Source: Vicinamibacterales bacterium
GTDB taxonomy: Bacteria; Acidobacteriota; Vicinamibacteria; Vicinamibacterales; SCN-69-37
DNA length: 64,000 nt
Direction: 5' to 3'
Assembly (NCBI GenBank): GCA_030827135.1
Contig: JAURFE010000001.1
Coordinates: forward strand, 214,569 to 278,568
The notes under the pieces are model-generated. The model had not been told where the DNA came from, searched no databases, and worked only from the letters and a program-made list of their open reading frames with translations. Positions within the stretch are counted from its first letter, which is position 1, and the number at the start of each line of letters is the position of its first letter. Below, one piece after another: positions 2,628 through 57,393 of the stretch. The position numbers and the translations under genes are program-made.

Positions 2628-2654
2628 GGCGCGCTACAGTTCAGCGCGCCCTAC
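2628..2654 (-). repeat. REP-like palindrome downstream of sucC
   Basis: Read on the minus strand it is GTAG, then GGCGCGCT, the 7-nt loop GAACTGT, then AGCGCGCC: a perfect 8-bp stem. The same architecture recurs ten more times in the window. It lies about 50 bp after the sucC stop and just before the sucD start. Confidence 0.85.
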
Positions 2655-6517: not shown

Positions 6518-6518
<1 letters not shown>

Positions 6519-7258
6519 TGAAGGTGCATCTGAAAGTGTGGCGCCAGTCGGGCCCGACGGCGCAGGGCCGGCTTGTGGACTACACCGCCGACAACGTGTC
6601 CCCCGACATGTCCTTCCTCGAGATGCTCGACTCGGTCAACGAGACGCTGATCGCGAAGGGCGAGGAACCAATCGCGTTTGACTCCGACTGCCGTGAAGGG
6701 ATCTGCGGCACCTGCGGCGTGATGGTCGACGGACGTCCGCACGGACCGGATTCCTGCACCACCGTGTGCCAGCTCCACATGCGCCGCTACAAGGACGGCG
6801 ACACCATCGTCATCGAACCGTGGCGCGCCAAGGCGTTCCCGCTCATCAAGGACCTTGTGGTGGACCGTTCCGCGTTTGATCGGATCATCCAGGCCGGCGG
6901 CTACACCTCGGTCAACACCGGCGGTGCGCAGGACGCCAACGCGATTCTGATTCCGAAGACGGTGGCCGACGAGGCCTTCGAATCGGCGACGTGCATCGGG
7001 TGCGGCGCGTGTGTCGCCGCCTGCAAGAACGCATCGGCGGCGCTCTTCACCTCCGCCAAGGTCACGCACCTCGCCCTCCTGCCCCAGGGGCAGCTCGAGG
7101 CGCAGAGCCGTGTCGTCGCGATGGTGGACGCCATGGACGAGAACGGCTTCGGCGGCTGCTCGAACGAAGGCGAATGTGAAGCGGTCTGCCCCAAGGGCAT
7201 CTCGCTCAGAAGCATCGCCACGCTCAATCGCGAATACCGCCGCGCGCTGCTCTCGTAG
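6518..7258 (+). CDS. sdhB: Succinate dehydrogenase iron-sulfur subunit
   Basis: This 246-residue protein has an N-terminal [2Fe-2S] ferredoxin domain with cysteines at about 58, 63, 66 and 80 (CREGICGTC). The C-terminal bis-cluster domain has [11 protein letters not shown] near 159-169 and [14 protein letters not shown] near 213-226, which provide the [4Fe-4S] and [3Fe-4S] ligands. It carries electrons from SdhA to the cytochrome b subunit. It is the last gene of the sdhCAB operon. The stop is followed after 8 bp by the large REP-like palindrome array, a likely 3' boundary. Confidence 0.97.
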
Positions 7259-7266
7259 CGACGCAT

Positions 7267-7437
7267 GTGGGGCGCGCTGAACTCGAGCGCGCCGGCAAGG
7301 CCCGCTGCAGTTCAGCGGGCCCTACGTACGCCGAACATGTAGGGCGCGCTGAACTGGAGCGCGCCGGCAAGGCCCGCTGCAGTTCAGCGGGCCCTACGTA
7401 CGGCGAACACGTAGGGCGCGCTGAACTTTAGCGCGCC
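7267..7437. repeat. Array of five REP-like palindromes, alternating orientation, 72-bp period
   Basis: Five stem-loops fill the gap between sdhB and the next gene: 7267-7293(+), 7299-7325(-), 7339-7365(+), 7371-7397(-) and 7411-7437(+). Plus copies read GGCGCGCT-loop-AGCGCGCC. Minus copies read GGCCCGCT-loop-AGCGGGCC. Both begin with the same flank, ACGTAGGGC (first copy: ATGTGGGGC), and have loops starting GAACT. Pairs of opposite orientation repeat every 72 bp. This is the layout of bacterial interspersed mosaic elements built from REPs with a GTAG foot. Confidence 0.9.
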
Positions 7438-7445
7438 AGGACTCT

Positions 7446-8009
7446 ATGACACTGACCCGTCGCCACGGCCTGGCAATGCTCGCGATTGTGCTCGTCACCA
7501 TTGCCGTCGAATGGTGGATGGGGCGGGTTCCGCTCGCACCGGACGGCACGTTCGCGTGGGTGGAACCCGACATCTGGAGCGCCCACCAGTCACAACGTGT
7601 GCTCGATCCGTACACGGTCTCGCACATCGTGCATGGATTCCTGTTTTACGCCCTGTTGGTGCTGGTCGCGCCCCGGCAGCCGGTCGCCACGCGTCTTGTG
7701 CTGGCCGTCGCCCTTGAAGCGGTCTGGGAAGTGCTTGAGAACTCCCCGATGATCATCGACCGCTACCGCGCCGTGACCATCGCGCAAGGGTACGTCGGCG
7801 ACAGTATTCTCAACTCCGTCAGCGACATCGTCATGGCCGGTCTGGGATTCCTGATGGCCTGGCGGCTGCGGGTGCTTGCAAGCCTCGCGGCGGTGGTGGT
7901 GGCGGAACTGGTGATGCTGCTGCTGATCCGCGACAACCTGACCCTGAACATCATCATGCTCGCCTGGCCGATCGACGCCATCCGCGAGTGGCAGATGGCC
8001 GGGCGCTGA
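7446..8009 (+). CDS. DUF2585 family (UPF0314-type) integral membrane protein
   Basis: This 187-residue membrane protein matches the remembered pattern of DUF2585: N-terminal helix then EWWMGR, SQRVLDPYTVSHIVHGFLFY, WEVLENSPMIIDRYR, the GDSILNSVSD stretch and a terminal RDNLTLNIIMLAWPIDAI. About five hydrophobic segments are visible. The molecular function of the family is unknown to me. It follows the palindrome array and faces the convergent broken gene at 8016-9010, from which it is separated by only 6 bp. Confidence 0.8.
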   Translation: MTLTRRHGLAMLAIVLVTIAVEWWMGRVPLAPDGTFAWVEPDIWSAHQSQRVLDPYTVSHIVHGFLFYALLVLVAPRQPVATRLVLAVALEAVWEVLENSPMIIDRYRAVTIAQGYVGDSILNSVSDIVMAGLGFLMAWRLRVLASLAAVVVAELVMLLLIRDNLTLNIIMLAWPIDAIREWQMAGR

Positions 8010-18384: not shown

Positions 18385-18411
18385 GTCGGGCCGCCTGAAC
18401 TGCAGGCGGCC
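18385..18411 (+). repeat. Variant REP-like palindrome between pyrG and kdsA
   Basis: GTCG foot, GGCCGCCT stem, loop GAACTGC, AGGCGGCC stem. The loop and flank (TACGTCGGG) match the family, while the stem bases differ in a compensated way. It lies 12 bp after the pyrG stop. Confidence 0.75.
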
Positions 18412-31911: not shown

Positions 31912-31938
31912 GGCCCGCTACAGTTCAGCGGGCCCTAC
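31912..31938 (-). repeat. REP-like palindrome downstream of the PKD lipoprotein gene
   Basis: The minus strand reads GTAG, GGCCCGCT, loop GAACTGT, AGCGGGCC. It is the same as the minus-strand copies in the 7267-7437 array apart from the last two loop bases. It lies about 50 bp after the stop at 31988. Confidence 0.85.
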
Positions 31939-49349: not shown

Positions 49350-49376
49350 GGCGCGCTCAACCCCAGCGCGCCCTGC
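49350..49376 (-). repeat. REP-like palindrome 2 bp after the secretin stop
   Basis: The minus strand reads GCAG, GGCGCGCT, loop GGGGTTG, AGCGCGCC. The stem matches the family exactly; the foot is GCAG and the loop has diverged. Confidence 0.75.
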
Positions 49377-50667: not shown

Positions 50668-50694
50668 GTCGGGCGCGCTGGGTTGTAGCGCGCC
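50668..50694 (+). repeat. REP-like palindrome between convergent permease and murA genes
   Basis: GTCG foot, GGCGCGCT, loop GGGTTGT, AGCGCGCC. It lies between the two stop codons (50645 and 50697), where it could end transcripts from both sides. Confidence 0.75.
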
Positions 50695-57366: not shown

Positions 57367-57393
57367 GGCGCGCTCAAGACCAGCGCGCCCTGC
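57367..57393 (-). repeat. REP-like palindrome 3 bp after the GHMP kinase stop
   Basis: The minus strand reads GCAG, GGCGCGCT, loop GGTCTTG, AGCGCGCC. It is nearly the twin of the copy at 49350-49376, including the GCAG foot and the 2-3-bp distance from the stop codon. Confidence 0.75.

Follow-up and report, generated by a model that had tools for sequence, protein, structure and literature searches.

The array of five stem-loops in the gap between sdhB and a DUF2585 protein gene, within the 64,000-nucleotide stretch of Vicinamibacterales DNA that was analysed (the window), is very probably a BIME of a lineage-specific REP family that is generated and sustained by one RAYT gene, RAYT-1, present in single copy elsewhere in the genome. 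The category of REP/BIME with a cognate RAYT is known; the family, the lineage and the strictness of the rule by which its REPs are paired appear to be new. The pairing of REP and RAYT is thereby extended to a little-studied lineage. An earlier note on this DNA had read the array as a REP/BIME whose family possesses a RAYT of its own, and the copy number, the REPs that flank the transposase gene and the co-occurrence of gene and repeat among congeners all agree with that reading.

Direct reading of the sequence confirmed the arrangement reported in the earlier note: five stem-loops in alternating orientation (+ - + - +), each with a perfect 8-bp stem and a 7-nt loop that opens with GAACT, recurring with a 72-bp period. 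Each stem-loop spans 27 nt. In both minus-strand copies an extra G-C closure produces a 9-bp stem and a 5-nt loop. The stem subtype follows the strand, as the plus copies are G-type (stem GGCGCGCT) and the minus copies are C-type (GGCCCGCT). Identity between the two complete 72-nt units is 96%, and the array consists of alternating REPs at regular spacing in modules, as is characteristic of a BIME. The GTAG foot ascribed to the hairpins is present in four of the copies, with GTGG in the first, and the conserved 5′ flank ascribed to them is exact (ACGTAGGGC) in three of the five, the other two reading ATGTGGGGC and ATGTAGGGC. A search of the window with the hairpin pattern, allowing up to three mismatches, returned 14 matches compared to 0.04 expected in shuffled sequences (shuffle maximum 1), which excludes chance. 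When folded as single-stranded DNA, one G/C pair is predicted to form a single hairpin that is long and imperfect (z -8.5); individual REP copies yielded z values of -4.0 and -5.5.

The abundance of the family was assessed across the source genome (G000; 3.24 Mb in 80 contigs). Matches to the left arm with at most one mismatch numbered 111, compared to none for the reversed control. The strict 27-nt full pattern identified 126 copies and a covariance model (E up to 0.01) at least 166, in keeping with the forecast that copies would not number below about 20 genome-wide. The repeats share with REPs of the GTAG super-family a 27-nt palindrome, a GTAG or GTGG foot, high copy number and extragenic placement. 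Among the unique copies found with a GTAG/GCAG pattern, the foot read GTAG in 72 of 77 and in 60 of 62. Using a simple home-made ORF caller by which the DNA is ~80–87% coding, 70 of 81 clusters were intergenic, and 26 were located between convergent genes compared to six between divergent genes. Covariation was examined in ~1 Mb of stretches of the source genome and of G004, a sister species in the same genus. As hairpins picked partly for pairing would bias the count, hairpins were selected on the foot and left arm only. Right arms were perfectly complementary in 93 of 114 hairpins selected in this way, and stem pairs 2, 4, 5 and 6 changed on both sides, which constitutes covariation.

Table. 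Features of the array, its flanking genes and other REP copies, in window coordinates.
Feature	Position	Strand	Remarks
sdhB, succinate dehydrogenase iron-sulfur subunit	6518..7258	+	Upstream gene, outside the element; named from sequence and operon order
Two tandem 72-bp modules	7264..7407	.	Each a G-type(+)/C-type(-) inverted pair, spacer GGCAA
REP copy 1	7267..7293	+	G-type stem GGCGCGCT/AGCGCGCC, foot GTGG
REP copy 2	7299..7325	-	C-type stem GGCCCGCT/AGCGGGCC, foot GTAG
REP copy 3	7339..7365	+	G-type, foot GTAG
REP copy 4	7371..7397	-	C-type, foot GTAG
REP copy 5	7411..7437	+	G-type, foot GTAG
DUF2585 protein gene	7446..8009	+	Downstream gene, other flank of the insertion site
Single REP copy, G-type	2628..2654	-	G004 occupied at same site
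REP variant, GTCG foot, stem GGCCGCCT/AGGCGGCC	18385..18411	+	G004 occupied at same site
Single REP copy, C-type	31912..31938	-	Corresponding G004 gap without a copy
REP variant, GCAG foot	49350..49376	-	G004 occupied at same site
REP variant, GTCG foot	50668..50694	+	Corresponding G004 site without a copy
REP variant, GCAG foot	57367..57393	-	G004 occupied at same site

The source genome possesses two clear Y1_Tnp genes. One of these, RAYT-1 (C51:143091-143597, with a likely start at an in-frame ATG, L032:1456), is encoded beyond the window, with the same palindromes on both of its sides, as had been anticipated for the family's own RAYT. The protein scored 105.1 bits against the NCBI model for REP-associated transposases (NF047646), above the cutoff of 80, and its closest solved structure is TnpAREP (4er8, E 1.5e-7). 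The HUH residues His-63 and His-65, Tyr-122 with NPVRAG, and Trp-101 and Gln-102 are invariant in six aligned RAYTs; in Escherichia coli TnpAREP, Trp-94, Gln-95 and Arg-104 are well conserved among the GTAG-interacting residues of the WQ region (PMC6006769). Three family hairpins are located upstream of RAYT-1 and five downstream, within ~200 bp on each side and all with a GTAG foot, and one of the downstream hairpins overlaps the RAYT-1 stop codon. RAYT-1 is present in single copy and its locus is the same in the sister species, where the RAYT likewise is bracketed by the same REPs. That orthologous RAYTs of related species occupy a common locus has been published (PMC2817692). A clean empty RAYT-1 site also was sought in the other congeners, where the flanks are syntenic only in part, and none is claimed. 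One point stands against the model: among the hairpins that flank RAYT-1 (L032:1332-2082) most loops read GGGTT and some of the stems GACGCGCT, whereas in the rest of the genome the loop is predominantly GAACT and the stem predominantly GGCGCGCT or GGCCCGCT.

The second RAYT-like gene (C11:1080320-1081045; L031:1240-1964) lies just 3′ of rho, scored 70.6 bits with NF047646, which is below the cutoff of 80, and has inverted pairs of a different palindrome, AAAAAGACGTCGGGTGTCTTTTT, on both sides. With at most one mismatch allowed, this palindrome was present in 27 copies in the source genome, 46 in G001, 41 in G002, 26 in G006, four in G005 and one in G004, and was absent from G003 and from seven further members of the family. 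Homologs of the gene in G002 and G006 are bracketed by the same palindrome, and T-runs at the AAAAAGACGTCGGGTGTCTTTTT palindromes suggest terminator activity. Gene and palindrome resemble the TIRtrons of PMC3733652. A third Y1-like match (G000:C33:2808-3284) was weak and is situated in an open frame of 411 amino acids.

The distribution of the strict pattern was examined in 80 genomes, comprising the source genome and 79 relatives. Only the source genome (126 copies) and the sister species (148 copies) contained it, and none was detected in the 78 other relatives searched, including five congeners. Similarly, a close homolog of RAYT-1 was found only in the sister species (76% identity), with the next best match at 47%. 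Thus, RAYT-1 and the strict REP co-occur in two of the seven congeneric genomes and the other five are without both, although a few weak covariance-model matches were noted in congeners without a close RAYT-1 (two in G001 and three in G006). This within-genus contrast, with two species possessing the RAYT and 126–148 strict repeats and five possessing neither, is correlative in what it says of the link between RAYT and REP and may go back to a single independent event of gain or loss in the genus. A scan of the genomes of 84,980 species for the exact 27-mers, from which the source genome itself possibly was left out, matched only the sister species. Two markers that bear on the host phylum were noted without settling it: LptD was not found in the source genome, and a LapB-type zinc ribbon is encoded in the window. 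Elsewhere in the order, RAYTs are flanked on both sides by hairpins of their own, with GTAG, GGAG or GTGG feet and unrelated stems. For example, the hairpin of the G013 RAYT (GTAGGCCGGAGCTTYAGCTCCGGC) is present in 20 copies in that genome and in none of 13 others. Another RAYT of the order (L067:873-2289) is bracketed by ~20 GGAG-foot hairpins with stem AGCGACGG which, on the upstream side, form a long tandem run with a 37-bp period. As the exact 27-mers matched just one other genome, the family under study is likely undescribed, although it could yet coincide with one of the 24 published GTAG families, which were compared from the text of PMC3733652.

The history of the array site was assessed by synteny with the sister species. 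Among 12 testable sites of this region that are filled in the source genome, nine also are occupied in the sister and three are empty, the array among them. The array therefore is a lineage-specific presence, yet most REP sites are old; the proportion in common implies that movement is slow or past. At some of the common sites the two species differ by paired changes that preserve the stem. At the sdhB/DUF2585 junction of the sister the genes overlap without an array, the sdhB stop codon sharing the sequence GTGA with the GTG start of the DUF2585 gene (L112, G004:C9 near 138780), so that the window array lies between two genes that in the sister share bases. The array instead could be ancestral and have been lost in the sister, a history that does not conflict with the identity of the element. 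Two features seen in G002 and in the window, a short spacer and the ATGACNNTGACCC start, are missing from the sister junction, which renders a deletion there possible and even probable. However, G002 is more distant and has a 22-nt spacer only at this junction, without an array. Thus, G002 favors gain in the lineage of the window, and ancestral presence followed by loss is the less likely course, at perhaps a quarter of the weight.

The repeats also might be regarded as ordinary host terminators, or as stabilizers of mRNA 3′ ends, that are under selection and have no relationship to a transposase. REP copies are positioned a few bases 3′ of stop codons, in many cases where two genes converge, and both the nine sites in common with the sister and the stem-preserving changes at some of these could be read in this way. 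The earlier note had held that copies conserved at orthologous sites as ordinary terminators would speak against its reading: the conservation was found, albeit in a sister that itself possesses a RAYT, whereas three sites differ and no hairpin in the array sequence is followed by the T-run that marks an intrinsic terminator. This missing T-run and the absence of strict copies from five congeners led to the rejection of the ordinary-terminator reading. Moreover, uniform sequence, tandem and paired arrays, and clustering at a RAYT gene are not expected of terminators. A role solely as terminators or stabilizers is very improbable, and host use of some copies by exaptation is possible. Finally, that the repeats are MITE-like elements of another transposon family to which RAYT-1 is adjacent by coincidence is scarcely credible since, although short palindromes in general can be MITEs and direct tandem copies exist here, eight copies bracket RAYT-1 within ~200 bp on each side and the sister shows the same arrangement, RAYT and REP co-occur, and the GTAG foot is a published recognition feature of RAYTs (PMC8266576).

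The pairing of REPs in this family is markedly regular. Tight inward pairs, with a spacer of ≤10 nt that nearly always is 4–7 nt, combined different stem subtypes in 59 of 60 cases. Tight pairs with the same stem numbered zero and one in the two genomes compared to ~8.4 and 12.5 expected from stem shuffling (P ~5e-5 each), although the two counts are not fully independent as many sites are in common, and copies outside the contiguous stretches were picked by pattern matches. In the contiguous stretches alone, none of 22 tight pairs had the same stem compared to 4.9 expected (P 0.001). In contrast, direct neighbors had the same stem in 32 of 44 cases. Tight +- pairs made up 15 of 26 two-copy clusters, singletons accounted for 42 of 83 clusters, and direct tandem REP copies also were present. 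It is conceivable, but on balance somewhat doubtful, that this heterotypic pattern arises because a founder pair of two subtypes is mobilized whole by the RAYT or because the cell purges the perfect long palindromes that identical REPs would form. If true, the pattern provides a specific, testable rule for BIME formation. A two-subtype REP system with nearly strict pairing also is useful for testing which unit is moved by a RAYT and why REP doublets are built as they are.

TnpAREP cleaves and rejoins single-stranded REP with GTAG as the guide (PMC8266576). We infer from this published work, rather than from an observed transposition event, that RAYT-1 may mobilize the REPs of the family, and the following scheme of single-stranded recognition, cleavage, mobilization and the order of events at the array is proposed on the same footing. 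The HUH/Tyr nuclease would bind the 27-nt hairpin and the GTAG at its foot when these are exposed on single-stranded DNA, for example during replication. The enzyme then would cut close to the hairpin, at a dinucleotide specified by the GTAG guide, and rejoin the DNA, and in this way REPs may spread, singly or in pairs, into intergenic regions. An inverted pair of one G-type and one C-type copy would have entered the sdhB-DUF2585 gap in the lineage of the window, after which the 72-bp module would have been duplicated in tandem.

The closest parallels to the system of RAYT-1 and its REPs are with previously described REP families. GTAG REPs with a cognate RAYT, the REPtrons, are known for example in Stenotrophomonas (Nunvar 2010, PMC2817692) and likewise possess a GT(A/G)G foot, a perfect GC-rich palindrome and >100 copies, with a single RAYT bracketed by its own REPs at a locus that is stable in related species, and with paired stem changes. 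The family described here differs in stem sequence, in a loop of 7 nt (5 nt with the G-C closure) instead of 2–4 nt, and in its bacterial lineage. The 24 GTAG REP families reported in >80 species (Di Nocera 2013, PMC3733652) are, in the available text of that work, similar in the GTAG tag, in stems of 6–13 bp and in a location downstream of genes, between convergent or co-oriented genes; the phyla named for GTAG families in this text are Proteobacteria, Cyanobacteria, Chloroflexi and PVC. The y/z BIMEs of E. coli (PMC8266576, PMC6006769) also comprise two related REP subtypes in inverted orientation and tandem modules, whereas in the present family the stem is without a conserved bulge, the spacer is 4–7 nt in nearly all inward pairs, and a single covarying stem pair accounts for most of the difference between the subtypes. 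REPINs of Pseudomonas fluorescens SBW25 (PMC3116915) similarly are inverted REP doublets that can be folded into one long hairpin, with a RAYT nearby, and singlets and ordered tandem clusters occur in both systems. However, REPIN doublets form within one REP group at a spacing of 71 or 110 bp, whereas the pairs in the family described here are heterotypic and tight.
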